Positions 2,952 through 23,707 of a DNA stretch of 53,008 bases are shown in pieces. Origin of the DNA: a virus; IMG/VR virus record IMGVR_UViG_3300025151_000047, positions 1-53,008 of that record; one strand, 5' to 3'. The translations under genes and the position numbers were made by a program. Below the pieces are notes generated by a model. It did no database searches. It saw only the letters and a program-made list of their open reading frames with translations, and had not been told where the DNA came from. Position 1 is the first letter of the stretch. Each line of letters opens with the position of its first letter.

Positions 2952-3428
2952 TTAGATTACGGGCTTCATCAAGGGCATTGAGACAGACGCATCGGATCCC
3001 ATGGGTGTAAACACCACCTTGGAGCTGCGCTCGAAGTCACGGAAGGCGTGATAGCGCATGACCGCTCCATTCTGTGCGGTAACCTCTGCGACAACACTGC
3101 GTGTGTGCTTGGACAGACGGTGGAGCACCTTACGAGCGTAGAACAGGGCAGGATCTTCAGTGATCCGTGTACCCATGTTTGTGACAACGCCATCGGTACG
3201 CACCCGCTTGAGCGTCAGAGGTCGAGCTTCAGACTTGACAGTCCACATTCTACTCTTCTCCATGCGCTTGATGTTGGCGGCCATTTTGGTCAGACAATCC
3301 CAATACACCACCGCACCGTGAGGAACCCACGATCCTGAGTCCTTCTCAAACACCATCGAGTAGGCATCGAGGTCGCCAACAGAAATCCTCAAGACGCGAT
3401 GATCAGAAATTTTGGTCTGGTAATACAT
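2952..3428 (-). CDS. hypothetical protein (158 aa)
   Basis: A basic, beta-rich soluble protein of 158 residues (MYYQTKISDHRVLRISVGDL...). It lacks cysteine clusters, signal peptide or membrane segments. No family recognised. The start has an AAGGAG site inside a small GCTC/GAGC hairpin shared with two neighbouring genes. The base composition is noticeably more GC-rich than that of the structural genes. Confidence 0.6.
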   Translation of the reverse strand: MYYQTKISDHRVLRISVGDLDAYSMVFEKDSGSWVPHGAVVYWDCLTKMAANIKRMEKSRMWTVKSEARPLTLKRVRTDGVVTNMGTRITEDPALFYARKVLHRLSKHTRSVVAEVTAQNGAVMRYHAFRDFERSSKVVFTPMGSDASVSMPLMKPVI

Positions 3429-3565: not shown

Positions 3566-3682
3566 CCTTGATCTCCTTTCACGATTGAAAGTAACCCCGT
3601 CCCCGTTAAGGGAGCAGAGTTACGCCTGTACCTCCGTTAGAGTAACATTACAAAACACAAGACAGACAGCAAAAACTCGAAC

Positions 3683-4021
3683 TTAGTCATTGAACACCAC
3701 ATCCCACTCAGCCGGAGTCCATCCGGTCTGAATAATTTCCCGGTGGTCCGCAGGCATGTCAGGCCACACCTGCTGGATCAGGGCACCTCCCCTCCACCGC
3801 TTCCATTCCTCAATGGATACATCGAAGCTGAACTCCTCACCCGTGACGCGGCAGGTTCGCTCGATCACGATGACGTTCTCACCAAGACGGGCATGGATCC
3901 TAGCTTTCTGTGGAGGAAGAGGGTCTGCATTCTTAAGGTCTTCCTGAAGCTGACCCTTGTTGATGATGGCCTGAAGGATGTCTTCGAGGTTGTCGTTGTA
4001 GAACTCTTCGTTCTGAATCAT
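3683..4021 (-). CDS. hypothetical protein (112 aa)
   Basis: A soluble acidic protein starting MIQNEEFYNDNLEDILQAII. A longer frame to 4063 adds a cysteine-containing segment but lacks a ribosome site, whereas GAAAGGAGC lies just before this ATG. The middle (RTCRVTGEEFSFDVSIEEWKRW) looks like a compact alpha-beta fold. Nothing recognisable as an enzyme. It shares the short SD hairpin leader with its neighbours. Confidence 0.6.
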   Translation of the reverse strand: MIQNEEFYNDNLEDILQAIINKGQLQEDLKNADPLPPQKARIHARLGENVIVIERTCRVTGEEFSFDVSIEEWKRWRGGALIQQVWPDMPADHREIIQTGWTPAEWDVVFND

Positions 4022-4102: not shown

Positions 4103-4723
4103 TTAGCCATTCAACTTAGTGACGGGATAAGTCTTGCCTCCGGCCCACTGTGTCCGAAGATTGGAGTCATCCCAGAACCGACCGAAGTAGACACGGTGAG
4201 CATTACAAAGATCATACACAGCTTCAGTGATAGCCTCACAGGAAGCGGAAACATCATCATAACTGTCGCTATCTTCAGTAAACTTGTCAATCAGATCAGG
4301 ACTACTCCAAATAGCCAGCACACACTGCCACAGGTCATCACTCTTAGAACACCAGTAGCTATCAAGGCTACTAGGCTCAAGCATCATATCGTCCCACTTT
4401 ACAGCGAGGTCAGGATTCTTCCACAGCAGAACAGAACGACAAATGTCCAGCCAATCACCAAAGGTGATCTTCTTAAAGTCATACCGAAACCAATGCTTAC
4501 CAGCAATCTCGTCTCCTCGTCGAGTACTTTCGGACACCATCATACCCAGCGTCTTCTGCTTCAGGTAATGAGCAACACGGCTTTCCTCTGCTTGACGTGC
4601 AACCACGTCGTACACGTTCTCGGTCTCCACGACTGACTGAACGTTCTGAGACGCAGCCTTGCAGAGTGCACAAGCGAAGAAGGCGACAACAGCGAAAACG
4701 ACGATGAGGGTAAGAATAAACAT
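4103..4723 (-). CDS. membrane-anchored hypothetical protein (206 aa)
   Basis: With the start at the ATG at 4721-4723 the protein begins with a strongly hydrophobic stretch (MFILTLIVVFAVVAFFACAL), a single N-terminal membrane anchor. A soluble domain rich in W and D/E follows (for example FRYDFKKITFGDWLDICRSV). The start is set by the GAAAGGAGC leader; a longer frame overlapping the previous gene is not supported. The product probably sits in the inner membrane facing the cell envelope or cytoplasm. A role in superinfection exclusion or lysis is possible but unproven. Confidence 0.6.
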   Translation of the reverse strand: MFILTLIVVFAVVAFFACALCKAASQNVQSVVETENVYDVVARQAEESRVAHYLKQKTLGMMVSESTRRGDEIAGKHWFRYDFKKITFGDWLDICRSVLLWKNPDLAVKWDDMMLEPSSLDSYWCSKSDDLWQCVLAIWSSPDLIDKFTEDSDSYDDVSASCEAITEAVYDLCNAHRVYFGRFWDDSNLRTQWAGGKTYPVTKLNG

Positions 4724-5700: not shown

Positions 5701-8700
5701 TTATAAGATGGGTTTTTTCATACCCCCTATTAGAGAGTCTCTTAGAAGGGATCCTAAGTTTTCGTATTCAGACATGTCTGGTCTATTTAATTCTTCTTTT
5801 AATGCTGGGATTAAATCAGGATCTCTCATAGAGTCTCTAGGTTGTGACTGTCTTGGTTCGACTGTCCCTTGTCTTGGTCCGGGTGCCTCCCTAACAGGTT
5901 TACTAACTTTAATGTTTTCCATAGGTTTGTATCCAGTCTTAAAGGGATCAAATAAAGGCATTCCAGAGTTTTTCAACATATCGTTTGATACTCTTAATCC
6001 AATAGGAACAATAGCAAAGAACGGAAGGGGGACCATTGAAGCAACATTAGCTGCACCAGTTAAAGCTTCTCCTTGATTGATCTTAGCGAAAGCGTTAGTG
6101 ACTCTAGTGGGTAACTGTAACATACGGTTAACCATAGCAATACCCGCCATGCTGTAGATCTGAGTGTTGGACGGACGCTGACCACGGAGAACCTGTAAGA
6201 GGGTGGCGATGACCATCTGGTTCATACCGAAGAACGGAACGGACATCATGGCATCCTGAATCTCAGACATAGGATCTCTCTTTGCTTTCTCTACCATATC
6301 CTCATAGGAAGTAGACATCTGAAGCTGGATGAGTTTATAATATAAATAACCGGAAAGTGCGTGACCCATAAAAGCTGCCGCAAATGCAGCCATACCGCCC
6401 AGACCAGCTCTATGCATACCGCTGTATACCGTAGAGGAGTAGGTATTAAGGGCCGTAGCTATGGGAGCCAGAGGACCAAGTGCTCTAGCTCCGACAGCAG
6501 GAGCTTCAGATACTGAGGGCTGTTTTGCGTATCTTGTTGCGCCTAACCATAAGATTTCTCTAAGGGCGTTGATTACTTGAATTCTTTGTGCTCTTTCTTT
6601 TGCGTTAGAATTATAATCAAAAGATGTTTCAGAAACCATTTTATCAAACGGCAATCCCTTTTGTTTAATATCATCACCGTAATCATAAAACAGCTTTTGA
6701 ACCACGGGAGCAAGCTCTCTACTGAATAAACCATTCTTAAGCATATCAATAACAACAGTAATTAAATCACTATCCATGTTATAATTACTCTTGAGTTTTA
6801 CTCTAAGTTCTTTCAGAGAAAGCTCATTTACATTCATATCTTGGAATGCTTCAGCCAATTCGTTAAACGTAGGTAAGATTGGTCCTCTAGGAGATCCCGG
6901 TATTAAATTACCTTCATCGTCAATTAAACTAACACCTTTGGACATTCTATAGAATAACCTATTAATATCCTGTGTGGTTTTTCTTGCGCCAATCTGACGG
7001 TTGAGGTTAACCTGAGAATTAAGACCCTTAGACGTAAAGGCGTAAATTCCTTTAGTTAGACCTTCAAATCCCTTATCAAACCTAGATTGATCTAATTTTC
7101 TACCGTCTTCCATACCAATTTTCTGAAGAACAACATTGACTTCTCTTGTCAAATCTTGGGTTATAAGCCCAAGACCTTCTAAGAATGCGTTTTTGTCTTG
7201 CTTACTTTTAAGTAAACCTACACCCTCTTGAATTCTATTATTAGCAGCTTGAAGGTTTGCTTTAAACGAACCAGCTAATGCCATAGGAGTTTCTTCCAAG
7301 AGAGAGGCAAAAGCAAGTCTTGGTCCAATAGCCAAAGCAGACCCTAACTGACCAATATGGTTAAGCATGTTAATGAACGGGATCGAACTAGCATCTTTAT
7401 CGTCCCACTTTAACGTACCCGTACTGTACCTATAAGCACTTTTAATGGCGTTAAAGGCGTGGGTAAACTTGTTCTTCTCTTCGGGCTTAAGACCTCTTTT
7501 TTCACCCATCTGTTTCATAAGCGGATCAAGCATGATATCCTCAAATTGATTGTTTTCAACTAACTGATCAATAGTATCAATCAGATCTGAAATACCAACC
7601 CCACGAATACCAAAAGCGTTTCCGAAGACTTGCCTATCAAATGCTTGAGCTGCCTGCCCCCTCATAAGAGAACCAAATATTTCGGCGGGATCTAAATTAA
7701 GGTGCTTTTTAATAAGAGGGTTCTGAAGCATATCCATGGTATTAAAGAACTTCTCTCCTACAAAGGTATACGTAGAAGAACCGGCTCTCATCATGTAATC
7801 TTCAGCAACAAGATTAGCTAACTTCTCGTCCATTCCTTGCGTGTACGTTCTCTTTTGAGCTTCCTTTGTTTTCTTAAGTCTATCATTTCGTAATTCCATA
7901 ATAGCTTCTTTTTGTTTTTCTGAGAGTGGTCTATCACCTCTAATATGATCGTTGTATACGTCACGTTCAGGTTCCGTAAGCAGATCATCTTTTTTAAGTT
8001 TACCTTTTTTAATATCTCTCATGAAAGAATTAAAGGCAGTGTTAGTATCACCTTTTTTCTGTAAGTACTCATTGTAGATACTAGACGCTGGTCCCATATC
8101 GATGCTAGACGGGGATTTAGTTGCATCGTCTCTCTCAAAGTAATCAGCAAAAATAACCTTAAATAAATCTGCATCAATGAATTCACTGTTAATTAATTCG
8201 TCAGTGATCTGATCACCGATAGCATTTCTCAACTCTTCTCTGGCTTGAATACCGTTTTTGCCATCGTTTCTAAAAACATCGTCTGAGAATTTTACAGGAA
8301 TAACACCTTCAGTAATTAACCTATCTCCCAACGTGGCATCAAATACTCCGCTATCTACCTGAGCGGTAATAATTTGTTTCCAAATACCCCTTTCAGGATG
8401 CGCCCACATTTCAACTAAATCAACAACCTTTTCAATGTTGGTTTCCTGTTCAGCTAAAGTCTTTTCGTCAAGAGTTTGCCCTGCTTTTCTAAAAGCAAGT
8501 TTCATGATTTCTTGTGCTCTATTTTTAGCGGCTTCCCTTCCTTGCCATCCTTTGATTTCGTTAGAGTACTGAGTTTCAGAAACCTTTTCTCTCATAGCCG
8601 TTGAAGCCCAGAACATATCGATGAATAAATCATAGGGAGTATAATCCTCAGTTCCTGTTTTCATTCCCGGCGTAAAGTTACTAAGTTTAATCTCTAAAAG

Positions 8701-11700
8701 ACCATTCATTAATGGTTCAAATATACCCTTTAACTGCAAGCCTAATCCCTGCATGGTAGGCAAGTTGGAACCAAATGCACTGGATGATACTAAGAGTTTA
8801 GTGTCAGTAGCTTGTAATAACATTAAGATTGTAGACGGAAGTCCGTTTTCTTTGTTTGCCATAAACGCGAACTTCTTAAGACCGAAGGGCTGTGCAAGGT
8901 TATGCATCAGTTTTTCTGTCTTTTCTCTACTAATTAAACCACCAGATAAATTACTCATAAGAGTAAAGACAGGGCTATCTACCAGAGTACCTGAAGATGT
9001 TTGCTCTCTCTTAGAGTCTAAGAATCTGTCAATAGCTTTTCGTCTCAAGTCATCGTTTTTAATTTCAAAGGCGTTAAACATACCTTCTTCGTCCGTATGC
9101 TCTCTAATAACATCGTCAAGCCTATGGATATCTGTTTTAAATGCTTCAGGAATATCAGGACGTTTTGGGCCTTCGTTGTTAAAGAATGAATCAGGGCCAT
9201 CAAAGTTATCGAACATTCCACTAACTTCGTCTTGGTCCAACGCATTAACATGAGATTGTTTACGTAAACCCGTCTCAGCCATTAATCCCATACCCTCGGA
9301 ACCAATGAATGTCTTGAAGTTTTTATCGACAAAACTCTTGTATCGGTTATATTTTTCAATATAATGAGAAGCGTTATCAATACCCTCAGCGATGGTTTTA
9401 TTGTCTTTAATTTTCAGCACAAAAGAATTAACATCGTTTCCAAATAGAGCCGAAAGGGCAAACAAGACACCAAACAATTCGTTGTTTACTGAAGGATCAT
9501 ACTCAGGTGAATCAATCCCTAAGTTTTTCTTAAACTCAGATATTCTAGAATCATAAGAGTTTCTTTCATTAGGTTTACCAAAAATCTTTTGCTCTAATTC
9601 GACAAACTTATCGAAGCCCTCTTTATTCTTAAGGAGATCTCTGGCAACAGTCATGTAATCTCTCATGCTTTCTTTGTCGAGTTTGCTGCCAACAATGTGT
9701 CCAATCTCTTCTAAGATAATACCAACAGCACCGAACTCACTGATACCCTCAAAAGATTCTGCAAGATCTTTAGCCACTCTAATTCTTGCTGCAACAACCT
9801 CAGCTCTACCACCCGCTTTTACTTCAGGATCAACAACAACATCTAACGGTTTCGAGTCTCCGAATAGATCCTTTAAAAGAACGTGATTAGCTCTGTCGTT
9901 AAATACGGCCTTTAACAGTAAGTGATCGTTTTTGTTAATAGTTTCCGTAGCAAGAAGTTCGTTTATAACCGTTAAGAAGTTTTGGTGATAAAAACCATTT
10001 TGAGCAAACTTGTCGTTATTAAACACTTCGTCAATAGTATTCGATCCACTGAAGGGTTCATTGCTGTCGGTTCTAGGTTTAATAGAATTAATTTCTAACT
10101 CAGTTTGATTAGCTGCCATTGGAACAGTAGGGTTACTGGTATTTTCGTTCACATCTTTTATTGAGTCAGCAACAGCAAAATCAGCAGTAATCTGCAACGG
10201 ATCTTCCATAATATCGTTTTGATGTCTAATGTTATCAGGGTTATATACAGCTTTATCGTTCTGTTGTTTTAATACGTTTTCTCTAAGCAAAGCAATAACG
10301 GGTAAAATATTATCCCTAAAGTCATCATACATTTCTCGGTAAGTAACGTTTTTCTGACCACGAAGGTTTTTTCTAAGCGTTTCCAGTCGTTTGAAAATAT
10401 TGAATAACCCTTCTTCTTTACCGATAAACGGAACTAAAGACATAGCCCTACTGAATGCTTCCTTATCTACCGAACGAATAGTATCCAAGGCATTAGAGTC
10501 TTCAATACTAAGGTCGCTTAAGATTTCATTAGCATTGATTTCATTTGCAATTGAGTAAGCTTGGCGGATAGACGCATCGTCGTAAACCAAGAATTCAGCA
10601 TCCATAGCTTTCGTACCAATAAACATTGTGTTTCTATTATCAACCTGAGTATTGGCTTTATTTTTAGTCAATCGTTTAATTGCTTGAGTTTGGATCATAG
10701 CATTCTGTCTAACTTCTTGGATAGAAGACCCCTTAGAGCTAAACGGATCGTAACCACCGATAGCATTAGGAAGAGATTTTTCGTAAGGAATATCAATTCC
10801 CATGCTATGAGCAAAAGTAATAGTATCCATTAATTTTTTGTTTACAATAGAGTTAATTGCCATAAGTTTTTCAACAGGTAATAACTTAACTCTAACTCTA
10901 CCTAAGACATAATGAGGAGAGACTGGTTCACCAAACTGGTTAATAAATACATTATCTTTCTTGGAAATAATAGTCTTTTCAGATCTTGTCTTGAGGAGGC
11001 TTTCAATAGTCATTCCTTCCTCAACGCGACCTAACACTCTATCGATATTTGGGAACATCTTCTTCATATCCTGAGCAACAGCTTCTGTCACAGGAATATT
11101 TCTAAGAGATTCGTTCAAGATATGCCGGTTACTATAACCTCTTACAGCTTCATTAGTACCTCTATCAAGTAAGTTTTGGATTGTTTTAGTTTCAGTTTCA
11201 TCTAAAGTTCTAACAAAGTCTTCCATTCCAAAAACATCGGAAGCATCTAACGATTCACCTTGAAGTTTCTTATCGTAGTATTTAGTAAACACCCCAATAT
11301 GCTGACTCGTAATCTCATAGTCCTTACCCATAATTTTACTAATAGCATATCTCTTAGCTGAATTCATGGCGTATAAAGACAGGTAGAGTGCCGGAGAGTC
11401 ACCACCAGAGAAGGCAACCAGAGCATTCATTGCTCTATTGGGATCCTGACCCCTTGCGCTAACAGCAGAGAATCGTCCTTCAGAAGTTAAGATTTCCCCT
11501 AAGAACTCCGCATCACCAGAAAGCCAAGCTAATAAGTTACCTGCTTCAACGTCGTTATTGATAATCATATTTTGAATGGCTTCCTCAATTGTACCAGTCC
11601 CAAACGATACAGGAATTGAAGAAATAGTATCAGCTTCAAGGCTGTACAAATCAGTTACTCTATTTTTAGCATCAAAGCCCCACTGGGTAAGTGCTCTGAC

Positions 11701-14700
11701 AGTCATCTCCTGATCTAAGACAGAGTTATCAACCATGGCATCCAGAGAGTTCTGAGCTAAAATGTAGTTAGTGTTTTCTAATACTAATGTGTTAATCTGG
11801 CTATCAGATAACGATGGTTTTTCTTTCTTAATAGCTGAGAAAATACTATCGTACAAAGACTGGACCTTTTCGGCTTCTAATCGAATCTGTAACTGACTTC
11901 TTTCCGATTCTCGGAGTCCGTTTAAAGAGTAGTAAGCTAAGAGAATCTTATCGTAGTTACCCTTATCTCTGAATTCGTTCAGTTGCTTATTATTAACCGT
12001 TTGTACGAAGTTATCAAGTTCGCTTCGTAAAAGCTCAGATACTTTTTCAATAGTCGGTTGTTTATCTAAGTTAGCAGCAAAAGAATTAAAGATATTAAAC
12101 GGCATTGTTTTCTGTAGTCTCAAGGGCTTAATATCATCTAAGGCTTCAGGAAGTGTATTAGGGTAAGCTAACTCTTCGTCACTAAATGGGCGTTCAGGAT
12201 TTACTCCAGTTAAACCCTTTCTAGTTGTTTGAAGTCTTTCTAATCTAGCTGCTGACGGAGATCTCAATAACTGGGACATCCTAACAATACCCGAAGGGAC
12301 ACCTTCAAAGTTTTCTAAATAAGTTTTAGGCAAGAACCCTAAAGCACTAGGCAGAGAGGTAACTTGAGACGTAGTGTCGTTTCCAGTGATCTCTTCCATG
12401 ATACCAGCTATCTCAGGAGATCTATTTTCTCCCGTAGAATCAATCATCTTAGAAATCATTTTAATTAAGACATCGTACTGTTCTTTATCACCTTCGTTAA
12501 GATTACCTCTATTCTTAGCTCTTTGTAATCTATCTAACTGGGTAATAGCCGCATCTCTAAGTTCAGCAGAATCTCTACTATCCGTTTCCCACTGCTTGAA
12601 GAAATCGTACATGGTAGAAGTCTCAAACTTGTTTCCGCCGATTTCAGGTAAGTCACTTCCGTCAGTAAACTCAGCTGCTTTTATAGCAAGTTCTAAGACC
12701 GTAAGTTTTTCAATTACTTCTCCAATATCTCCAACAATAGGATCATTTCTTTGTTCGACTACGCTATATACCTCACCGTCTCTAAATCTTTTTTCACTGG
12801 TGGGAGTGAAATTAGACGGACTGTACCTTCTACCGTGGTCAGATCCTGCGGCGTTGAAGAAGAAGTCGTTCTCAAATCCTCTTCTAGCGACTGGATTCAA
12901 TCTGTTTAGGACTGTGCTAATAACTTCTTCTCCAACGTTACCGAACATACCTCTCATAGTATCTTCAAATGATGATTCTTTTAATCTGTAAGCTTGTCGC
13001 GCATAGCTGTTTAAGGCATCAACTTTAATATTACGTGCTTCCTCAAAGGTAACAAGAGTGGAATATCTTGAGTAAGCTTCAGTAAAGTCTCCAGTTTCCT
13101 TAGCCTTTTCTAAAAGCTCTTTTAACTGTTCATCTGATTCAATTCTTTCAAGCGTAGTTTCAATGACACCGGAAAGACCCTTAATAGCGTCTTTTTCGTT
13201 TTCGTAGAATTTGTTTTCAACTAAATGCCGTGAAACACCTAAAGTTTTTCTAATAAGCTCACTGAATGAAGAATTTTGTTCTCTGTTGGATGCAGTTGTT
13301 CTACCAATAATTGTATCAAAGTCATCGGTTTCATCAAAGGTACTTCTAACAGCGTTACCAATAGGAATATTACTTTCTTGAGTAAGTTTAAATCTATTGA
13401 ATAAGTCCCTAAGTTTTTCATTGGTAATCTTATTTCCGCCTCTATTTGGGAAAAGAGTTTCTTTCACCCAGCCATTTTCAACGGTAACTCCATTCTCGTT
13501 AAACAGGTTGCCTAACAAATCGGAAGCTGCTATAGCAATTCTTGTATAAGAAGTATCATCAATAATCCCACTGTTAATGATCTTTTCTTTGTTTTCAGGG
13601 ACATTAAAGAACTTATTGTAAATATTATTACCCATAGTTCCTGCACCTGCGTTATACAAGTCAGTCATAGTGGGAGACTTAAATATTTCTTTTAAGGCCA
13701 TATCTAGATCGTCAGCTTGAGTAAAGATTTTTCTAATAGCCTCTAATGCCAAGACATAATCTTCACCCATAGCTTCAACTGCTTTGGTTAAAGTACCGCT
13801 AGGGGTTCTTTCTTCTGCTGTTCTCTTTACACGTTCGTAAATAGTTTCATAGTTTTCAGTAATGAATCTAGATAATCCCTCTTCTCCTTCAGCTTCTCGG
13901 ACTAAATCTCTAAAGAATTGTCTGATTGCTCCGGCACCTTCGATACCTTGGACCATACCAATCATAACATTACCACCAGAAGCATCTGCATCAAGTTCCT
14001 CGACTTGTTTTTTAAAGAGTGTTTTCTGTATACGTTCTCTAACCTCAGGTTGTACTTCGTCAATTCCTCCTCCAAAGAAGAAGGTAACAAAATCATAACC
14101 TGTTTCTTTTTCAAATTTAGAATCGTATAATTTCCTAGCCGCGTCGAAGACACCTCTGTAGCCGTAGGTTATCTCTGCTGCTGCCAACATACCAGATTGA
14201 ATTGTACCACCTCTAGCAAATCCAACAGGGAAACCAAACCCAAGACCATCAAGGGGTCTAATAGTACCACTTTCAGTAGTCACTTCGGGATTAAAGTGAC
14301 CTGCGTCTCCGACTACTAAACTGGAATACATGGGGAACAACGCATCATGAACAGCCGTCATAAAAGCTGGATCAGTAGCAAGGAAATGCTGTTTGTTTAA
14401 GTCAATTGCTCGTTGAATACTGTTAGGCACTTCGCTGGTTAATGACTGGTAGGCTTGAGTGGGGAGAATCAGTAGGCCAGTATCCCTTGATTTATTGGGA
14501 ATAGCATCCTCTTTGATTTTAAACTTAGTTAACCACTCCCTTAATGCTTTAATATCAACACCAGTATTATCTAATTCTGCCTTAAGAATAAAATCAATCT
14601 TACGGTTTAAGTCAAACTCATCGTACATAGAAGCGATAACGGAATCAGACCGCTGTTGGATCTTGCTTTCTCTGCGCTCACCAATATCTACTTTACGCTC

Positions 14701-17700
14701 TAACTTTCCGGTTTTACCCATAACAGCTGTTCTGTTGTTAACTCTGCTTGTGTTTTCTTTCTGGGTAGTTAAAGCGTCGATAACAGCACGGGCTGCTCTT
14801 ACGGGATGTAATAAATCAATCACACCACCTAAGTCCGAAAACTCTTTAATCTTTTTACCAGAGGGTAAAACTGAGTTAAAGTCTTTCAAAAGATTAGTTA
14901 CAATCAAACCGTCAGTAACATTATCGGTTTCAATATTGTTATTTGTTTTCGCTAATCTGGTGATCTTTGTATTGAAGTGGGATTCCCATTCTTCCTTGGT
15001 AATTGGGTTACCATCTTCATCGACATAAGAGTCTTCTCCGTTTGCTTTCCTCCACTCTTCCGCCCTTGTTCTATTAGCTTCGATAATATCTTCAACAAAG
15101 TCAATATTATTTCTAATGCTTCCTTCTCCTTCAAAGAGACCAGTACCATCAATCTTACGATCAAAGATTCTGTTGTAGGTAGCGTCGATACTCTTCATGA
15201 AAGCAGGAGCCTGACCCGGATCAGCCATAGCAAGTTTTTCTCTAATGGAATCTAATACAATATCTCCGTCGTATACTTTTTGTTCTCCTCCTGATTTTGT
15301 ATCAATCAGTCTCATTATCTCAAAACCTGAGTTAGATCCAGCGATTAAACCAAGAAGATCTTCTCTAGAAATTTCATTTGTAAAGTTATAACCTTCTGAA
15401 ATAGACCCAGCCACGTTCTTACCGTTTTGTCGATTAGCTGCAATGTAGTTAGATACATTCATCAGCAGACTCATGAGTGGTTTAACGTGACCAACGGGAG
15501 GTCTTATTTCTACAGAAATTCTTTCAGATTCTAATCTAATCTTGTTGTTTAGAATATCTTTGGTACGTCTTCTAACAGTTTGTTCGATACCATCTCCCAT
15601 TTCCTTCAGGAGGTTAGCAATTTCTTCAAGTTCTTTATTAATCGTAGTCAGTTCTTCTGTTGCAGGTTGTGACTTCTTTCTCCTAGCGATCTCTGCTCGA
15701 AGATCATCGGCTTCTGCGAACAACCTAACGGGTTTAGCTTCTAGTTTTTTATTACCTCCTACCTCAACTTGTGTCACCAGAATTGCAGCACCTTCGTCAT
15801 TGGCTCGACCAGTGCCGTTTTCAATTTCATTCAGCGCATTTTCTAATCGCTCAGTAGGTACGTCTTTCAGATTTGTTTCGGCATTGCCGCCCTTATAACT
15901 TTGTACAGATCCAACAGGCATTTCGTCCTTTGGAGTCATTTTCGCTTCTCTGGTTTCAACTTCACCAAGTTTGCCTGCCGCCTCGTTGAATTCAGCTTCT
16001 AGCTCATCAACATTTTGGCCTCTTTTTTCTGCTTGTTTTCTTGCCTTGTCAGACAATGTAGGTCTTCTCTGGTCTTGGGAACCTTTTCTAAGTGTTTCCC
16101 TCTTAGCTAAAAGCTCTTCTTGTTTAAGCTTAAACTCGTTATACTTATCGTCTTTATCTTTTGCAGTTTTAATTTGTCGTTTTATTAACGCTTCTTCTTG
16201 TGATTCCACTCCCTCTTTAATCAGTTTTTCAATAATCTGCATTTCTTCTGATTTAAAGTAAACACTAGAATCTAAAAGAGACACGGCTTTGTTGTAATTG
16301 TCTGTATCTTGCTGCGTAGGGTCTTTCATTCTTTCGGAAATAGCTGAAGCTAATTCACTCGCGCTCATCTTACTTCGTCCCTTAATTTCTAAGGATGCCG
16401 CAAGATTGTTCAGGACGTTTTTACCGAGTCCTAATTCCTGAACGTCTCCCTTTGCAATTTTATCTCTTACATCTTTGACCTTATGTAAAGCCTCTTCAAA
16501 CTGCTTCTTTTTGTTTTGTCCGTCCTCAAGATTAGAAATAACATCTGCAATATTGAGCTTATCACCATCATCTTTAAGTGCAGTCTTAATATCACCAAGT
16601 TTCATAACTTCAGCGGAATCGAAGGCAGAAAGGAACGCTTCTTCGGGATCTAATCCTTTTTCGATAAGCTGATGGTACATAGTCTCATACAGTTCTGCGT
16701 CTTTAGCTTGGATAACGTTTAAAAAGTTATCATTGACAAAGTTTTTAATTTTTTCCATGTCCTCAAGACTGATACGATCTGTACTGTAATTCTTAATTTT
16801 ACGAAGAAGAGTATCCATGTCTTCGCTGATGTTTGTCATACTGAGTAAACGATTAATGAGATCTTCATCCATACCAAGCACACCCATAATGCTTGCAAAA
16901 CTGGGAGCATCCGCTTCTTTATCAAAGGTCAAATCTTCAACAATTTTATTTCTAAGTCTTTTACGGAAATCAGAAATATCTTCAATTAAAAAGTCATCTT
17001 CAGCCTTTATTCTTCTACCTACAAGAATCGCATGATTATAGACATTATCTTCGTGCGCGGATTTCTGTTCATTTTGGGTTTTAGTCAGCGATTCTAACTT
17101 ACTTTTTTCTTTAGTAATTTGATCTCTTAATTCTTTTTTCTTGTTCTTATCAGTAGTGTTTTTTAATTGCTCTTCTAGATTCTTAACGGTAGATTTAACT
17201 TTACTGATTTGTTCAGTTGTTTTATCTAATGCGTCTTGACTTTCGTTACTTGCTTGGGATGCCTGCTCCTCTTGGGTTCTAAGATTGGTAAAATCTTCTC
17301 GACTACGAATAGTTTCAGAGCTAGAAGGCTCTACTCCGTTCACAGTTGCGTCAGCAATTTGTTGCCTTCTTTCGATGGGGTCTACCTTTTTTATAGCACT
17401 TTCCGCAAGTCTTACGTTTAATTCCTTAGCCTTAAATTCCTTATTTCTTGCAATCAAATCATCCTTAAGGCCATCTGTAAGTCGTTTAAGAAACTCATCT
17501 ACCGAAATAGACTCATCATCTTTAATACTATTAGCAATTCTTTTTGCAGTTTTTCTAATAGTAAGACCTGATTGGTTAGCAGTAGAGGCTATTTCGTGGA
17601 TTTCGGTTTCAAGCCTATCGAGGTTACCTTCAATCTTTGAATTATCGTCACCAACATCTAATTTAGTGAAAACATAGTTTACAGACATCCTAGCATCAGC

Positions 17701-19725
17701 TGTAATACTATTAGAGGTAGCTCTGTTAACGAAAGCTTTAACAGACCTTGTAAATCTAGATTCGTTTTTCCGAATTGAGTTAAGCCTATCTGAGACAACC
17801 TTGTTTAATTGAGTCATCCACCCTCGTTTTCTACCTTCTTCAGGAGAGTCTGGACTATCAGGATCAAGATCCCTCTTCCCTCTACTAGCTAAGTTAAACC
17901 GATCAGAAAGGTTACGTCCAATGTTAGCAGTAACATCAAACGCTCCACCAACTGCGGGAGACAGTAAACCACCGGCTACACCACTCATTGCCATACTAAG
18001 CCAGATAGCACCGCTCTGCTCTCTCTGGTAGGCCATAGCGTCTGCTGCTTCTTTTCCGTACATAGCTTCATTTAAAACATCCTCAACGGAACTAGCATAC
18101 TTGTATTCTAATGCGCCCCAAATAACACCTTCACTTAACCCAGAAATAGATCGGTAAGCTATTTTACCTGTAACACTTTTAGGAAGATAATCGCCCGCTT
18201 CTAAGTATGTTACTAAGTTTTTAAAGTTCTTTCCTTTACCCGCCCTAAGCGTGTACATAGCAGAGGGGGCTAAAAGCTCAGAGACAATCTGCGTGGGCAT
18301 GAATCTCTGGAAGTGAAGTGCTTTATCGGCTATTCCTCCAACGATCTTACCAGCTGATGATAGACCAACATCTGCTGCTTCTCCCATCCAGTGAATACCT
18401 TTTCTCGTTCTTGTCGCTTTATTGAAAACCGACATTGAGTTAGATACTTTAGTAATATTACTAATTGCAGCAGAACCCTTTAAAGTAAACGCTGCTCCCT
18501 TTAATACCGAATATCCACCTACGGTGGCAGCAGTAGCAAGAATATCTAAAGGTAAAGAAGGGTCAGCAGTAAACCCATAACCAAACATATTAGCGTAAGC
18601 TTTAAACGTAAACTCTCCGTTAGATCTTCCTAAATGTTCAGCGACAGAGTATTCGATTTGTTTTTTGTTAACGCCAGCAATAAACGCAACAGGGTTTTTA
18701 GACTCCACTAAATCCTTAATAAACTCAGGATTCTTTCTAAGATAATATAACATATCTTGGTTTTTAGTTGTAGTCAGAGCTTCAGCTAACATATTTCTTG
18801 TACCGGGAAGCTCATCAGTACCTACCCAAGTCTTATCATCGTACCGGTACAACTTATCGACAGCATCTTCCGTCCCAAACATGGATTCGTAAGTTGAGAT
18901 TTTTTCTCCTGTCATGTAATCAGGAAGAAGTTTTGCAATATTATCAATAAACCATCCATTGCCTGTTCCGGCTGTAGCCATAGCAATTTGCTGTTCAATT
19001 TCTTTTTGTCTGAAAATATCATCAAACTCAGAATCACGTAAGGGGTGATCTTCAGGAAGAGAATCAAAAACCTGCCTTAAAGCAAACTCAGTTTCTTCTC
19101 TCATACGCATCTGTAAAGCTTGGTCAGACATAATACCCGCAGTTTTACCAAGTATAGACTGATTTTCAGCGTACTGAGTAGCATTTGTAAGTTTAGATGC
19201 TTGATACGACTCACGTAAATCGTAGAATCTCATGCCCGTTTCACCCGGCATAGTAGCAAAAAGTTGGCTATTAAGCAAGGTAGGAGCTAACGTAGGATCG
19301 TCAATAGAACGGTGGACACCTTCAATAAATTTAGGATCTGAAGATTCAATAACGATTTGTTTCTCACCGTTTTCGTCTACTACTTCTTTTGCGAGTGATG
19401 TAAATAGGTTAACAAAATAATTATTTTCCGCTTCAACTCTTTGAATAGTTTCCTCAGGAGAAAATCGTTCTGGCCTGAATAAATTATCAGCCGCTGCTCT
19501 AAAGTTATCTCTTAAGTTCATAACTTCAGTTTGATCTAACATATAGTCAGCCGAATAAACTGAGTCTGCTAAAAACCCGCTAAGGTTTTGTGAAAGCTCG
19601 TATTCAGCTAGATAATCATTAAGTTTTTTAGGACGAAGTGAGTCCTCAAACTCTTTTTTCTTTAAAGCATTAACGTAATTAGTAGCTTCTCTAGAATAGT
19701 TCTCACTATTGTATTGAATAGGCAT
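5701..19725 (-). CDS. giant internal virion/ejection protein (4674 aa), candidate virion RNA polymerase
   Basis: Last of three ejection-protein genes, in the position of T7 gp16. Visible parts: hydrophobic segments near residues 388 and 588; a coiled coil near 818-893; a segment resembling single-subunit RNA polymerases at about 1912-2030; a zincin-like EEIGH at 3339-3343 with a later NNELFGVLFA (E about 3416); and a glycine/alanine-rich hydrophobic C-terminal region at about 4415-4590 like those of large polyvalent phage proteins. The polymerase-like pieces are DASGGNVMIG (D1914), TIYERV (about 1961) and FKSPTMTDLYNAG (K2016, M2020, T2021, Y2024). D-to-K spacing is 102 residues, against 94 in T7 RNA polymerase. 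No DxxGR motif lies upstream and no certain motif C was found. No lysozyme motif was seen at the N-terminus. AGGAG precedes the ATG. Ejection-protein role likely; polymerase activity inferred. Confidence 0.8.
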   Translation of the reverse strand: MPIQYNSENYSREATNYVNALKKKEFEDSLRPKKLNDYLAEYELSQNLSGFLADSVYSADYMLDQTEVMNLRDNFRAAADNLFRPERFSPEETIQRVEAENNYFVNLFTSLAKEVVDENGEKQIVIESSDPKFIEGVHRSIDDPTLAPTLLNSQLFATMPGETGMRFYDLRESYQASKLTNATQYAENQSILGKTAGIMSDQALQMRMREETEFALRQVFDSLPEDHPLRDSEFDDIFRQKEIEQQIAMATAGTGNGWFIDNIAKLLPDYMTGEKISTYESMFGTEDAVDKLYRYDDKTWVGTDELPGTRNMLAEALTTTKNQDMLYYLRKNPEFIKDLVESKNPVAFIAGVNKKQIEYSVAEHLGRSNGEFTFKAYANMFGYGFTADPSLPLDILATAATVGGYSVLKGAAFTLKGSAAISNITKVSNSMSVFNKATRTRKGIHWMGEAADVGLSSAGKIVGGIADKALHFQRFMPTQIVSELLAPSAMYTLRAGKGKNFKNLVTYLEAGDYLPKSVTGKIAYRSISGLSEGVIWGALEYKYASSVEDVLNEAMYGKEAADAMAYQREQSGAIWLSMAMSGVAGGLLSPAVGGAFDVTANIGRNLSDRFNLASRGKRDLDPDSPDSPEEGRKRGWMTQLNKVVSDRLNSIRKNESRFTRSVKAFVNRATSNSITADARMSVNYVFTKLDVGDDNSKIEGNLDRLETEIHEIASTANQSGLTIRKTAKRIANSIKDDESISVDEFLKRLTDGLKDDLIARNKEFKAKELNVRLAESAIKKVDPIERRQQIADATVNGVEPSSSETIRSREDFTNLRTQEEQASQASNESQDALDKTTEQISKVKSTVKNLEEQLKNTTDKNKKKELRDQITKEKSKLESLTKTQNEQKSAHEDNVYNHAILVGRRIKAEDDFLIEDISDFRKRLRNKIVEDLTFDKEADAPSFASIMGVLGMDEDLINRLLSMTNISEDMDTLLRKIKNYSTDRISLEDMEKIKNFVNDNFLNVIQAKDAELYETMYHQLIEKGLDPEEAFLSAFDSAEVMKLGDIKTALKDDGDKLNIADVISNLEDGQNKKKQFEEALHKVKDVRDKIAKGDVQELGLGKNVLNNLAASLEIKGRSKMSASELASAISERMKDPTQQDTDNYNKAVSLLDSSVYFKSEEMQIIEKLIKEGVESQEEALIKRQIKTAKDKDDKYNEFKLKQEELLAKRETLRKGSQDQRRPTLSDKARKQAEKRGQNVDELEAEFNEAAGKLGEVETREAKMTPKDEMPVGSVQSYKGGNAETNLKDVPTERLENALNEIENGTGRANDEGAAILVTQVEVGGNKKLEAKPVRLFAEADDLRAEIARRKKSQPATEELTTINKELEEIANLLKEMGDGIEQTVRRRTKDILNNKIRLESERISVEIRPPVGHVKPLMSLLMNVSNYIAANRQNGKNVAGSISEGYNFTNEISREDLLGLIAGSNSGFEIMRLIDTKSGGEQKVYDGDIVLDSIREKLAMADPGQAPAFMKSIDATYNRIFDRKIDGTGLFEGEGSIRNNIDFVEDIIEANRTRAEEWRKANGEDSYVDEDGNPITKEEWESHFNTKITRLAKTNNNIETDNVTDGLIVTNLLKDFNSVLPSGKKIKEFSDLGGVIDLLHPVRAARAVIDALTTQKENTSRVNNRTAVMGKTGKLERKVDIGERRESKIQQRSDSVIASMYDEFDLNRKIDFILKAELDNTGVDIKALREWLTKFKIKEDAIPNKSRDTGLLILPTQAYQSLTSEVPNSIQRAIDLNKQHFLATDPAFMTAVHDALFPMYSSLVVGDAGHFNPEVTTESGTIRPLDGLGFGFPVGFARGGTIQSGMLAAAEITYGYRGVFDAARKLYDSKFEKETGYDFVTFFFGGGIDEVQPEVRERIQKTLFKKQVEELDADASGGNVMIGMVQGIEGAGAIRQFFRDLVREAEGEEGLSRFITENYETIYERVKRTAEERTPSGTLTKAVEAMGEDYVLALEAIRKIFTQADDLDMALKEIFKSPTMTDLYNAGAGTMGNNIYNKFFNVPENKEKIINSGIIDDTSYTRIAIAASDLLGNLFNENGVTVENGWVKETLFPNRGGNKITNEKLRDLFNRFKLTQESNIPIGNAVRSTFDETDDFDTIIGRTTASNREQNSSFSELIRKTLGVSRHLVENKFYENEKDAIKGLSGVIETTLERIESDEQLKELLEKAKETGDFTEAYSRYSTLVTFEEARNIKVDALNSYARQAYRLKESSFEDTMRGMFGNVGEEVISTVLNRLNPVARRGFENDFFFNAAGSDHGRRYSPSNFTPTSEKRFRDGEVYSVVEQRNDPIVGDIGEVIEKLTVLELAIKAAEFTDGSDLPEIGGNKFETSTMYDFFKQWETDSRDSAELRDAAITQLDRLQRAKNRGNLNEGDKEQYDVLIKMISKMIDSTGENRSPEIAGIMEEITGNDTTSQVTSLPSALGFLPKTYLENFEGVPSGIVRMSQLLRSPSAARLERLQTTRKGLTGVNPERPFSDEELAYPNTLPEALDDIKPLRLQKTMPFNIFNSFAANLDKQPTIEKVSELLRSELDNFVQTVNNKQLNEFRDKGNYDKILLAYYSLNGLRESERSQLQIRLEAEKVQSLYDSIFSAIKKEKPSLSDSQINTLVLENTNYILAQNSLDAMVDNSVLDQEMTVRALTQWGFDAKNRVTDLYSLEADTISSIPVSFGTGTIEEAIQNMIINNDVEAGNLLAWLSGDAEFLGEILTSEGRFSAVSARGQDPNRAMNALVAFSGGDSPALYLSLYAMNSAKRYAISKIMGKDYEITSQHIGVFTKYYDKKLQGESLDASDVFGMEDFVRTLDETETKTIQNLLDRGTNEAVRGYSNRHILNESLRNIPVTEAVAQDMKKMFPNIDRVLGRVEEGMTIESLLKTRSEKTIISKKDNVFINQFGEPVSPHYVLGRVRVKLLPVEKLMAINSIVNKKLMDTITFAHSMGIDIPYEKSLPNAIGGYDPFSSKGSSIQEVRQNAMIQTQAIKRLTKNKANTQVDNRNTMFIGTKAMDAEFLVYDDASIRQAYSIANEINANEILSDLSIEDSNALDTIRSVDKEAFSRAMSLVPFIGKEEGLFNIFKRLETLRKNLRGQKNVTYREMYDDFRDNILPVIALLRENVLKQQNDKAVYNPDNIRHQNDIMEDPLQITADFAVADSIKDVNENTSNPTVPMAANQTELEINSIKPRTDSNEPFSGSNTIDEVFNNDKFAQNGFYHQNFLTVINELLATETINKNDHLLLKAVFNDRANHVLLKDLFGDSKPLDVVVDPEVKAGGRAEVVAARIRVAKDLAESFEGISEFGAVGIILEEIGHIVGSKLDKESMRDYMTVARDLLKNKEGFDKFVELEQKIFGKPNERNSYDSRISEFKKNLGIDSPEYDPSVNNELFGVLFALSALFGNDVNSFVLKIKDNKTIAEGIDNASHYIEKYNRYKSFVDKNFKTFIGSEGMGLMAETGLRKQSHVNALDQDEVSGMFDNFDGPDSFFNNEGPKRPDIPEAFKTDIHRLDDVIREHTDEEGMFNAFEIKNDDLRRKAIDRFLDSKREQTSSGTLVDSPVFTLMSNLSGGLISREKTEKLMHNLAQPFGLKKFAFMANKENGLPSTILMLLQATDTKLLVSSSAFGSNLPTMQGLGLQLKGIFEPLMNGLLEIKLSNFTPGMKTGTEDYTPYDLFIDMFWASTAMREKVSETQYSNEIKGWQGREAAKNRAQEIMKLAFRKAGQTLDEKTLAEQETNIEKVVDLVEMWAHPERGIWKQIITAQVDSGVFDATLGDRLITEGVIPVKFSDDVFRNDGKNGIQAREELRNAIGDQITDELINSEFIDADLFKVIFADYFERDDATKSPSSIDMGPASSIYNEYLQKKGDTNTAFNSFMRDIKKGKLKKDDLLTEPERDVYNDHIRGDRPLSEKQKEAIMELRNDRLKKTKEAQKRTYTQGMDEKLANLVAEDYMMRAGSSTYTFVGEKFFNTMDMLQNPLIKKHLNLDPAEIFGSLMRGQAAQAFDRQVFGNAFGIRGVGISDLIDTIDQLVENNQFEDIMLDPLMKQMGEKRGLKPEEKNKFTHAFNAIKSAYRYSTGTLKWDDKDASSIPFINMLNHIGQLGSALAIGPRLAFASLLEETPMALAGSFKANLQAANNRIQEGVGLLKSKQDKNAFLEGLGLITQDLTREVNVVLQKIGMEDGRKLDQSRFDKGFEGLTKGIYAFTSKGLNSQVNLNRQIGARKTTQDINRLFYRMSKGVSLIDDEGNLIPGSPRGPILPTFNELAEAFQDMNVNELSLKELRVKLKSNYNMDSDLITVVIDMLKNGLFSRELAPVVQKLFYDYGDDIKQKGLPFDKMVSETSFDYNSNAKERAQRIQVINALREILWLGATRYAKQPSVSEAPAVGARALGPLAPIATALNTYSSTVYSGMHRAGLGGMAAFAAAFMGHALSGYLYYKLIQLQMSTSYEDMVEKAKRDPMSEIQDAMMSVPFFGMNQMVIATLLQVLRGQRPSNTQIYSMAGIAMVNRMLQLPTRVTNAFAKINQGEALTGAANVASMVPLPFFAIVPIGLRVSNDMLKNSGMPLFDPFKTGYKPMENIKVSKPVREAPGPRQGTVEPRQSQPRDSMRDPDLIPALKEELNRPDMSEYENLGSLLRDSLIGGMKKPIL

Positions 19726-19744
19726 GTAATTTTCTCCTGATTAA

Positions 19745-22700
19745 TTAGGTGTCACTAATGAATTTACTCATAGTATAATATGGGTTAAGTTTCATATTGC
19801 GGTTCATTCGGTTGAGTACTTCTTTTATATTTTCTTTTTCTTGAGCACTATATAATAAAGGTATCATATCTAAGTTATACATCCAATTAGCTGGCTCAAA
19901 GACTTTATCGCTAAAGTTTCTATTAGAATTTCTTAAAATATTTTCTTTAATTTGTAAAAAATATTTCTCATCTAACATATACTCTTGTTCTTGACCAAAC
20001 CCCAAACCTTCTCCGAAATTAGTTTCAATAGTTGTATCGAGACCTGTACCTAAGACAGCTGCGAATAACTTTGGAATTCCTTTGGTATCAGTGGCATCGG
20101 TATAATCCAACATGTTTTTAATGAATTTTGATGTTTTCACTTCTGGGTTAGGTAACTGAGACATTTGCTGTAATTGTATATAAAAAGCAATACCTTGGTT
20201 GAGACCTAATTCCGAAATACCGTATTCGTAACTGTCTTGGTCCCCTTTTTTAGCATGTGATAAGCCTCTCTTTAATCCATTATGGTTTACTAGTCTTCTT
20301 AAAACCTCCATCCAATCACCTGAAACTCCTTGAAGCTGTTTAAACTGACTATTTAAAAGTTTAAAAGTATCGTAAGGAACAATGGTTTCACTCTGAGAAA
20401 CAATCTCAGCTTGGGCTAAAGGATCATTAATTTCTAATTCACTTTCAATACGAGATAAAAATTCACCTTGCTCAGTAAAAGGATTAAACTCAAAGGGGCT
20501 ACTAAATCCGTCTGCTACGGGATCTTTAGAAGCAGGCATAACCTTAACGCTATATGTAAAGAATCTACCATCATATAACTCATCTTTTTCTTCCATATAA
20601 GCAGTAAGACCCGGTTTACTATCGTCTTCGTTATCGACTTCTACAATAGATACGACAACTCTTTTACCTGCGGTATTTAAACTCTGTGTTAAAAGAGCAT
20701 CAGCTGAAAATTCTGATGTTCTTTTACCTTCTGCTTCAAGAGTAGCCAACATAGACCTATATAATTCTCCTGTTTCCATGGAAAAGTTGAAAACTTGAGG
20801 GTCATCTAAACCAACTCTAGTCATTTCAGCCATAAGCTCTTCAGTGGCTACCCTACCTTTTTCTCTATTTTTAATAATTTCTTCTTCGTTTGATCTAGGT
20901 AATCCAGTTACACGATCCATGTTTAATACATCGTTAACATCGTTTCCTATATTTGAATTTTCAAATACAATTCTTCTATCAAATATTGCTCTTGATGGTA
21001 TTTGAGTATCTTCAAAAATTAAACCTTGGTAACCTTGAATTACTCTAGCATAGTTATTTATATCTTCTGGTCTATTTCCGAGTAAAGCTACGCTATTTGC
21101 TAATGCAAAATTCCTAATATCGATAACACGATCAGGGGTAGCTTCAAACGCCCCAGCGTTACGTGGCCTAGAAGATTTAAAATTACTAGCTGGTATACCT
21201 AAAATAGATGCCAGTAAATCACTAGATTTTTCAACAGTTTCTTCAGGTAAAAATGAGATACCATTTCCACTGACTAAACCAAAAATAGGAGCAACTTTCG
21301 TTAAGTTACTTTGCATCCAGTTATTAAGCTCCCCTTGTCCTTGTGTTTTAGCTTGTTCAATTTCCTCTATTAAACCGTTCATTCTTTTATTTAATTCTTG
21401 TTGAACTCCTTTAGGGAAATCTAAAGAGTACCCGTGAATTTGTCTTTTTTCTTTATAAGATTCCATAAAAGAAGAAAGGTAGGGGACAACCTTTTCGTTA
21501 TCGTCGCTAAACTTAAATACGCCATCACTGTAGCTAAAAATACCACCACTTTCAAAAGCTACCTTATTACCTAATCTTTGCATAGAGTCTTCAAAAGAAT
21601 TCACAAATCCGACGTACCTCTGGTCTCCTTCAAATATCTCGCTGTTACCTTTTCTTTCAAGTATTTCTGCAATGTTTTTAAATTTCATAAGAGCGTTCAC
21701 ATCTTCGTCTTCTATAATTGCTTCAATACCTTTAAAAGCCATATCATTTAAATACGGTAAATTAGCTCGTCTAAAATCTTCTAAAATAGTACTATTTACG
21801 GATCTTGAAATATTGTTAAAAGCTTCTTCACCTAATGACATGGCAGCATAAGATAAATGATCCATAGCCTCTGAAGAGGATTGATAATCGTTTACTGTAA
21901 CTCCGTTACTTAAAGCAGAAACCGTAGAACTTGTAGCAGTTGCTTGTTCTGTAAATCTCTGAGGAGTAGGAATATCAATACCTTCATTAACCATTTTTCT
22001 AGCTATTTGAGTATAAGCTTCAAAATCGTCATCGAAGAGAGATTCATCAATACTATCTCTGAGAGACATATATTTCTCTGCGTCTGGGAACATAAGTTCC
22101 ATAGGCATAGGAGACTGAGGATATTTCCCCATTCCTACACCAGATGTAGCTTCTTGATACTCGAAATCGTAAGCAGCAATGCGGAAATCCAGCATATTAT
22201 CTATAATAGATTTTTGGTTATCTCCGTACTGGGAGCTGTAAAGATTATCTATAATTGTTCTAGTTGTATATATTCTTTCGTCTTCTCTATTAGCCTCAGG
22301 AGGAGGAGAACTCGGTACAGTCACAGGGTTTACTGGCCCAGTTGTCATTTCGGCTTGCCGTGCCGCTTGTAAAAGCTGTCCGGTTCTTTGGTTACTACCA
22401 AAGAACAACTCAAAGTCTTGTCTGTACAGACCGGAATAAGCCCTCATTGCCATAGCATAAGCAGCTCTATCTCCTTCCGATCCCTCACCCAGAATCGTTG
22501 AAAGATATTCAGGTTCTTCTTGGACTTTCTTAACAAACGGTTGCAGTTCTTCTGGGAATCTCAAAACATTGTATCTACTCAATAATCGAGTATTAGTAAT
22601 AGCTGAGTCTCGATCGATAATTGAAGGAACCTGTTTAACGCCATTATAAAGGTAGGTAAACATGCCTGCTTGACCAGCGGGAGAAAGACTAAGAGCCTCA

Positions 22701-23707
22701 CCCATAGCTTGTAAATCTTCATCTACTGATGAAGTATATTTAGACATTTTATGAATATTTGCTGTTCGATTCAGTTGCCCATTTACTAAAAGTGTAGAAG
22801 CGTTTCGACCTCTGGCTAAACGATTTTGAATTGTAGTCTGAGCAGCATAAAAAGAGCTAACCTTTTGATCGACTGCTTCCATAATACCGGGGTTATCTAA
22901 TACGTTTCTAGGATCAATACCAGCTTCTGAAAGGCTAGTCTCTAAAAAGTTTCTAATAGTATTATTGAACGCTGTTGCACCCAGACCAACCCTACCAGCA
23001 CCTTCGCTATTTAGAATAACATCTAATTGAGTATTAGTAATATCGTATAATCTGTTAAACTGTTCCTTAAGATCGTTTGAGATCTGACCCTGCAACCAAC
23101 GATCACCCGAAGTTTTTAACTGTGGGTTAGCACTAGTAAAATCTTTAGTTGCCGCCTCAAGAAAATCTTGCCTACTGAGACCTTCTCCTTCTGAAACGAT
23201 GGGATAGTTATTCGATTCTCTGAGAGTTTTAGAAGCCCAACTAGTAAACTTAAGATCGTCTGTAATTCCATTTAATTCTTGTAATGCCTGAGTTCGTTGA
23301 TTATGAGCTGCAACCTGAGACGTTTTAGTCAGGGGTTTAAACTCAGCATATGCTTGATCAATCATACGAAGCTTAGACTGGTAATCGATATTGTCTTTCT
23401 GAAGAATATTACCAACTAATAGTTGGACATCTTGCATTCTTTCTCTATCTACTCTATCTCTGATTCTTCTTCCTTCTTCTACTAATCCAGTAATTGGACG
23501 TAAGGTAGCGAGAAGATCAGAAGCGATATTACTCTGTGGGGCAAAGGCAGTTCTTGCGTTCGCTCCGAATTGAATACCACCGAGCTGGGGCATAGAAAGC
23601 ATTTCAGCTTCTTTGTAAACAGTAGGAGTACGCCTTTCTAATCTATCTAACTGACCGGGAATTCTTCCCGACATTTGAACCATATCGTTTTTAGTTACTT
23701 TAGGCAT
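19745..23707 (-). CDS. internal virion/ejection protein, T7 gp15-like by position and size (1320 aa)
   Basis: A large soluble, mostly helical protein without cysteine-rich or beta-helix features. It begins MPKVTKNDMVQMSGRIPGQL. It lies between a short glycine-rich gp14-like gene (8-base overlap) and the giant last gene, the gp14-gp15-gp16 order of T7-like podoviruses; T7 gp15 is about 750 residues, so this is a long version. Such proteins form the inner core above the portal and are ejected to help make a channel for DNA. AGGAGG precedes the start. No peptidase or lysozyme motif was seen. The assignment rests on context more than sequence. Confidence 0.65.
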   Translation of the reverse strand: MPKVTKNDMVQMSGRIPGQLDRLERRTPTVYKEAEMLSMPQLGGIQFGANARTAFAPQSNIASDLLATLRPITGLVEEGRRIRDRVDRERMQDVQLLVGNILQKDNIDYQSKLRMIDQAYAEFKPLTKTSQVAAHNQRTQALQELNGITDDLKFTSWASKTLRESNNYPIVSEGEGLSRQDFLEAATKDFTSANPQLKTSGDRWLQGQISNDLKEQFNRLYDITNTQLDVILNSEGAGRVGLGATAFNNTIRNFLETSLSEAGIDPRNVLDNPGIMEAVDQKVSSFYAAQTTIQNRLARGRNASTLLVNGQLNRTANIHKMSKYTSSVDEDLQAMGEALSLSPAGQAGMFTYLYNGVKQVPSIIDRDSAITNTRLLSRYNVLRFPEELQPFVKKVQEEPEYLSTILGEGSEGDRAAYAMAMRAYSGLYRQDFELFFGSNQRTGQLLQAARQAEMTTGPVNPVTVPSSPPPEANREDERIYTTRTIIDNLYSSQYGDNQKSIIDNMLDFRIAAYDFEYQEATSGVGMGKYPQSPMPMELMFPDAEKYMSLRDSIDESLFDDDFEAYTQIARKMVNEGIDIPTPQRFTEQATATSSTVSALSNGVTVNDYQSSSEAMDHLSYAAMSLGEEAFNNISRSVNSTILEDFRRANLPYLNDMAFKGIEAIIEDEDVNALMKFKNIAEILERKGNSEIFEGDQRYVGFVNSFEDSMQRLGNKVAFESGGIFSYSDGVFKFSDDNEKVVPYLSSFMESYKEKRQIHGYSLDFPKGVQQELNKRMNGLIEEIEQAKTQGQGELNNWMQSNLTKVAPIFGLVSGNGISFLPEETVEKSSDLLASILGIPASNFKSSRPRNAGAFEATPDRVIDIRNFALANSVALLGNRPEDINNYARVIQGYQGLIFEDTQIPSRAIFDRRIVFENSNIGNDVNDVLNMDRVTGLPRSNEEEIIKNREKGRVATEELMAEMTRVGLDDPQVFNFSMETGELYRSMLATLEAEGKRTSEFSADALLTQSLNTAGKRVVVSIVEVDNEDDSKPGLTAYMEEKDELYDGRFFTYSVKVMPASKDPVADGFSSPFEFNPFTEQGEFLSRIESELEINDPLAQAEIVSQSETIVPYDTFKLLNSQFKQLQGVSGDWMEVLRRLVNHNGLKRGLSHAKKGDQDSYEYGISELGLNQGIAFYIQLQQMSQLPNPEVKTSKFIKNMLDYTDATDTKGIPKLFAAVLGTGLDTTIETNFGEGLGFGQEQEYMLDEKYFLQIKENILRNSNRNFSDKVFEPANWMYNLDMIPLLYSAQEKENIKEVLNRMNRNMKLNPYYTMSKFISDT

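Follow-up and report, generated by a model that had tools for sequence, protein, structure and literature searches.

What is encoded by a 14-kb gene that occupies the gp16 position in an uncultured T7-like podovirus? The window analyzed here is the whole linear IMG/VR record IMGVR_UViG_3300025151_000047 (53,008 bases), which appears to be partial. An earlier note on this DNA, made from the sequence alone, had read positions 5701 to 19725 as one gene for one 4,674-residue protein that takes over a quarter of the window, and both points hold: a single open frame of 4,674 codons on the minus strand, translated from an ATG with an AGGAG ribosome-binding site 8 bases upstream (19734 to 19738, minus strand), fills 26.5% of this partial-looking record. 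Relatives extend to 72,875 bases, so the share of the whole genome would be closer to one fifth. Base shuffling of the gene's 14,025 nt, repeated 50 times, never gave more than 163 codons without a stop, and the other five frames carry 147 to 693 stops over the same stretch.

To collect relatives, we scanned viral contigs for the terminase, which yielded 34 loci, and searched 33 records with both halves of the giant. Six records match, each in one frame of 4,610 to 4,746 codons without an internal stop (4,609 to 4,735 aa from the first start codon). The five orthologues that were aligned share 26 to 46% identity with the window giant; the sixth is a near-duplicate (99.7% identity) of one of these. 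Because a full-length unbroken frame is present in six IMG/VR records, a frameshift or an assembly error joining separate genes, raised by the earlier note as what would refute it, is excluded; the giant is a real, conserved single gene. The remaining records are either fragments or members of a more distant group (terminase identity, 56 to 60%) with frames of 5,182 to 5,565 aa in the giant's place. Further scans widened the lineage to complete giant frames of 3,580 to 5,694 aa in the same place, so that members longer than the window giant exist. GTDB genome contigs contained nothing related to the terminase profile.

The neighborhood of the gene is that of a T7-type ejection cluster. A minus-strand head/tail module (head-tail connector, head assembly protein, capsid, and tail protein, all PHROG matches) is followed on the same strand by the T7-type terminase large subunit gene terL (24942 to 26636; family match), a small ORF, a gp14-family internal virion protein (23700 to 24452; PF24072, E = 6e-8), a 1,320-aa protein (19745 to 23707) without a family match that is assigned to gp15 by place and size only, and the giant. 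This is the T7 ejection order gp14-gp15-gp16, and the ORF and gene order support a single, very long chain at the gp16 position. The giant is thus like T7 gp16 in its position after the gp14-family and gp15-place genes but unlike it in being about 3.5 times longer (T7 gp16 has 1318 residues) and in having no significant Pfam match. T7 gp16 carries a lytic transglycosylase at its N terminus; no Pfam match to one was found in the giant.

Several other observations were made on the genome. The small ORF between the terminase and gp14 genes (24454 to 24945) encodes 163 aa with no Pfam or PHROG match, and its start is one that we take to be P-loop-like. A cysteine-rich protein of 2,297 aa is encoded in the tail region (32179 to 39072). 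The terminase of the window is 94% identical to those of two relatives (G001 and G002), yet the giants share only 46% and 35% identity, a contrast that can be read as ejection genes that either evolve very fast or recombine. Terminase sequence is found at both ends of the 72,875-base contig (loci L008 and L010), which indicates a circular or terminally redundant genome near 72 kb. The window probably covers only part of the genome and lacks the early region. A canonical RNA polymerase (RNAP) gene is located elsewhere in 7/11, 9/14, and 7/13 of the records searched, several of which are fragments. Distant relatives have a further ORF of 590 to 700 aa soon after the giant (L064, 17493 to 19457; L065, 16729 to 18576; L084, 16736 to 18694; L163, 79 to 2181; and others), and none was seen in the window. 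Against the canonical RNAP profile, these ORFs gave E values of 9e-94 (L163), 9e-10 (L064), and 0.001 (L065), and either DxxxSG or an HD motif toward the end was seen in 10 of 12; they are possibly a third single-subunit RNAP.

Whole-protein scans of the window giant gave no significant Pfam, PHROG, or PDB-sequence match. Its layout is as follows (all positions on the minus strand). An N-terminal region, residues 1 to 780 (17386 to 19725), has conserved columns near 384 to 389, 477, 532 to 537, and 590, and is followed by a charged, poorly conserved, linker-like region, residues 801 to 1300 (15826 to 17325). The most conserved C-terminal region spans residues 4380 to 4600 (5926 to 6588). Some distant giants contain an RNase H/PolB-exonuclease-like domain (L158, residues ∼3586 to 3720, PF13482, E = 8e-8; L067, residues ∼3300 to 3400). 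The chain had also been described as combining hydrophobic ends, coiled coil, and polymerase-like and zincin-like parts. The coiled coil is recognizable as a charged, coiled-coil-like stretch at about 801 to 900 and 1201 to 1300, while the hydrophobic ends are weak, with one segment (4555 to 4573) exceeding a 19-residue Kyte-Doolittle cut of 1.6. The zincin-like part is partly borne out: HExxH occurs at the matching distance in 15/25 giants, whereas the window and five near relatives have a degenerate EExGH, the window site reading LEExGHxxG with the first His replaced by Glu (residues 3334 to 3350; 9676 to 9726). Four of the 25 giants, two of them incomplete, are without the site, and a SprT-like Pfam match was obtained once, weakly.

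The polymerase-like part fared better, with profile shuffles and invariant residues pointing to a T7 RNAP-like region of rearranged motif order. It covers residues about 1560 to 2330 (12736 to 15048, minus strand). An HMM of the region, built from nine giants and run on giants outside the build set, matched further giants with E values of 1.1e-7 to 3e-32 (L064 was weaker in the first pass, at 1.9e-6). With seven more giants in which the region was found later, the set comes to 25 after removal of two near-copies, which were dropped before any counts: L058, 99.7% identical to L057, and L082, whose length and scores equal those of L066 and which was therefore treated as its copy. The Pfam T7-type RNAP model matches two giants (G005 and G007) at motif B, with E values of 2e-5 and 3e-5, under the curated cutoff. 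No significant HMM match was found in the complete giants L162/L163, L164, L245, L246, and L252 (at least five distinct); the partly covered giants L161, L167, L168, L242 to L244, L247, L251, and L256 were not counted as being without the region. Two final viral scans using alignments of the polymerase region added hardly anything new, and INPHARED phages gave no match to either part of the giant, to the gp15-place protein, or to two distant polymerase regions.

The alignment of the 25 giants has a median pairwise identity of 18%, and in it D1794, D1912, K2016, Y2024, and G1633 are invariant, with Y1963 kept in 24/25; a second alignment gives the same invariant residues. The core motifs lie within residues about 1790 to 2316 in the order C-A-B-thumb/TxxGR (all on the minus strand). 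Motif A, D1912xxxSG (residues 1910 to 1919; 13969 to 13998), has its Asp in 25/25, S or N at the Ser position in 24/25, and G in 21/25. Motif B, [RK]xxxKxPxMxxxY (residues 2012 to 2025; 13651 to 13692), has K2016 and Y2024 in 25/25 and a median PSSM rank of 1. The motif C-like VHD (residues 1789 to 1796; 14338 to 14361) has D1794 in 25/25 but the preceding His in 13/25 only; an HD-like site is located 85 to 141 residues before motif A in all 25 giants. D1794 and D1912 are the only invariant Asp residues in window residues 1400 to 2500, any other being kept in at most 18/25. The T7 RNAP counterparts are D537xxxSG, R627xxxK631xxxM...Y639, and H811D812.

Such a region could in principle be a noncatalytic relic that now has a structural or DNA-binding role in the ejection machine. 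The five complete giants without the region would fit this, as would the canonical RNAP gene elsewhere in the genome and, in distant members, the small RNAP-like ORF adjoining the giant. A relic, however, would be expected to lose its catalytic residues, and both Asp residues and the motif B Lys and Tyr are kept in 25/25 giants at a median identity of 18%; we consider this explanation unlikely.

The order of the motifs was examined with a canonical RNAP profile composed of T7 RNAP and 25 RNAP genes from the lineage, 23 of them full length and two shorter (∼700 aa). The best match of the profile of the giants' region places window residues 1910 to 2038, motif A through B, on T7 535 to 653, the window row scoring 33.7 and L057 scoring 45.3; column shuffles averaged 14 to 15 with maxima of 24.2 and 17.8, and none of 80 equaled the match for either of the two queries. 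A slice taken after B to serve as a negative control matched the thumb instead: it falls on T7 308 to 442 in all five row choices with scores of 28.7 to 32.3 (29 to 32 in round figures, versus 11 to 23 for the other three control slices), and none of 60 shuffles reached it for either of two rows (maxima, 18.2 and 20.8). In this thumb/TxxGR-like segment (residues 2226 to 2316; 12778 to 13050, minus strand), the alignment of the window row sets N2239 on T7 N321 and R2299 on T7 R425 in the GRxY motif, and R2299 is Arg in 23/23 sequences that reach the column. When T7 308 to 444 alone served as the template, it was placed downstream of B in 24/25 row choices, with L257 ending early there. The TxxGR PSSM by itself does not single out R2299 (median rank, 83; equaled by 65/200 shuffles).

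For motif C, the canonical PSSM gives D1794 a median rank of 9 among about 323 Asp residues per giant, with 2/200 shuffled PSSMs doing as well; the same PSSM places the true N4 motif C 13th of 184. Adding the lineage's second RNAPs moves the median to 8 (1/200 shuffles). A 31-column motif C template has its best place at D1794 in 25/25 row choices, which share one alignment and are therefore not independent, and 0/50 shuffles equaled it in each of two runs. On the other hand, the whole stretch that precedes A scores no better than shuffles (19 and 11 of 100), and with a template rotated to place C before A, the alignment does not reach into C, leaving no continuous path. Weighing the profile and shuffle results against these two nulls, we regard the order A-B-thumb as well supported by sequence comparison and the placement of motif C first, at D1794, as probable.

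The order TxxGR-A-B-C that defines T7-type RNAPs is therefore not what was found, and C-A-B-thumb cannot be derived from it by simple circular permutation. A simple permutation had been considered from pieces matching T7 662 to 726 and 424 to 447 around motif C; the idea was dropped because these matches were weak and the thumb/TxxGR block was found after B. It may be restated as an order A-B-C-thumb, in which A-B and the thumb derive from an RNAP, a degenerate motif C lies between residues 2024 and 2226, and D1794 is something else. Consistent with this, the alignment of some queries continues past B into T7 654 to 689, and the rotated template finds no path through D1794. But every Asp between 2024 and 2226 is kept in fewer than 14/25 giants, whereas D1794 is invariant and the best motif C match, which makes the restated permutation about as improbable as the relic. 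That the giant is an ordinary long T7 gp16-type ejection protein without a polymerase, its motif matches arising by chance in helical, charged sequence, would suit the lack of Pfam, PHROG, and PDB matches in the window protein itself and the helical predicted models but is very unlikely given the shuffle tests for three segments and the invariant residues.

Structure prediction was of low confidence: AlphaFold models with 25 rows reached a pLDDT of 64.7 for window residues 1400 to 2500 and 57.6 for a distant member (L158), and both drew the motif C segment as a helix at low confidence. Foldseek and VIA-align searches with these two weak models retrieved no RNA polymerase, and profile searches of PDB sequences found no polymerase. 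A KlenTaq DNA polymerase row in the fold search (Z = 3.0) was within noise.

Known systems that come close to the proposed rearranged polymerase are of several kinds. The RNA-dependent RNA polymerases of birnaviruses and permutotetraviruses have a permuted palm with the order C-A-B. They resemble the giant in placing motif C before A and B but belong to an unrelated polymerase family, and in the giant the thumb/TxxGR segment has moved too. We found no permuted single-subunit RNAP in a literature search at the title and abstract level. The virion RNAP (vRNAP) of N4 (gp50; 3,500 aa; Schitoviridae) is, like the giant, encoded by the last gene of a three-gene ejection cluster (gp50 to gp52), and N4 also has a later phage RNAP. 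Its motif A, DxxxNG, and motif B, KNP...Y, resemble those of the giants, and its sequence matches the giant profile marginally (E = 0.009 in full and 0.05 to 0.2 by domain). Unlike the giant, N4 vRNAP keeps the order TxxGR-A-B-C, as does T7 RNAP, and unlike N4, the window phage has a T7-type head, tail, and terminase. According to PMC12633501, N4 gp50 is packaged, follows gp52 and gp51 in ejection, and transcribes the first genes. An N-terminal domain and a low-complexity linker precede its RNAP domain (residues 1007 to 2101). The giants share this layout, and both chains have a single-subunit RNAP core in midchain and a large C-terminal part. The Thermus phage P23-45 has, according to PMC10770324, a tape measure protein of 5,002 aa with a fused RNAP and a second RNAP in the genome; it is thus like the giant as a giant virion chain, but the RNAP is of the cellular type and the phage is long tailed.

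In the best explanation, an uncultured lineage of T7-like podoviruses has the giant as its largest ejection protein, a multidomain chain of the N4 vRNAP type. We put at roughly 0.7 the probability that it holds a packaged, ejected RNA polymerase of the N4 vRNAP kind in rearranged form, where packaging, ejection, and activity are what we infer. That it is a natural, block-exchanged single-subunit RNAP, active and virion borne within a giant ejection protein, in a widespread uncultured lineage that also encodes a canonical RNAP, we give slightly better than even odds. The gp16 place, together with shuffled T7-type RNAP parts inside the chain, suggests that this phage injects its own transcription enzyme at infection. 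The proposed chain would consist of the N-terminal region, the charged linker, a single-subunit RNAP core, the zincin-like part, and the conserved C-terminal region, and its core would run from motif C to A and B (palm and fingers) and then to the thumb/TxxGR segment. It would be packaged in the virion, ejected after the gp14- and gp15-like proteins, and refolded in the cell, where it would transcribe the first genes, including that of the phage's separate T7-type RNA polymerase; this transcription may perhaps help to pull in the genome. Transcribing the first genes would be the simplest role for an injected RNAP. Since the defining motif order is different, the region should not be classed as an ordinary T7-type RNAP, though it probably acts in the same way.

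Giant ejected RNA polymerases are already known in N4-like phages and P23-45. What is probably new, as judged from sequence, is an ejection protein that contains RNAP core motifs in the order C-A-B-thumb/TxxGR. If this is true, the strategy of a giant ejected RNAP would extend to T7-type podoviruses, and the T7 polymerase core would tolerate block exchange. It would also raise the question of why one phage would have one RNAP in the virion and another in the genome. Finally, because rearranging the core also changes the order in which its segments have to go through the portal, the giant may offer a natural test case of how a chain of this size regains its enzyme fold after threading.
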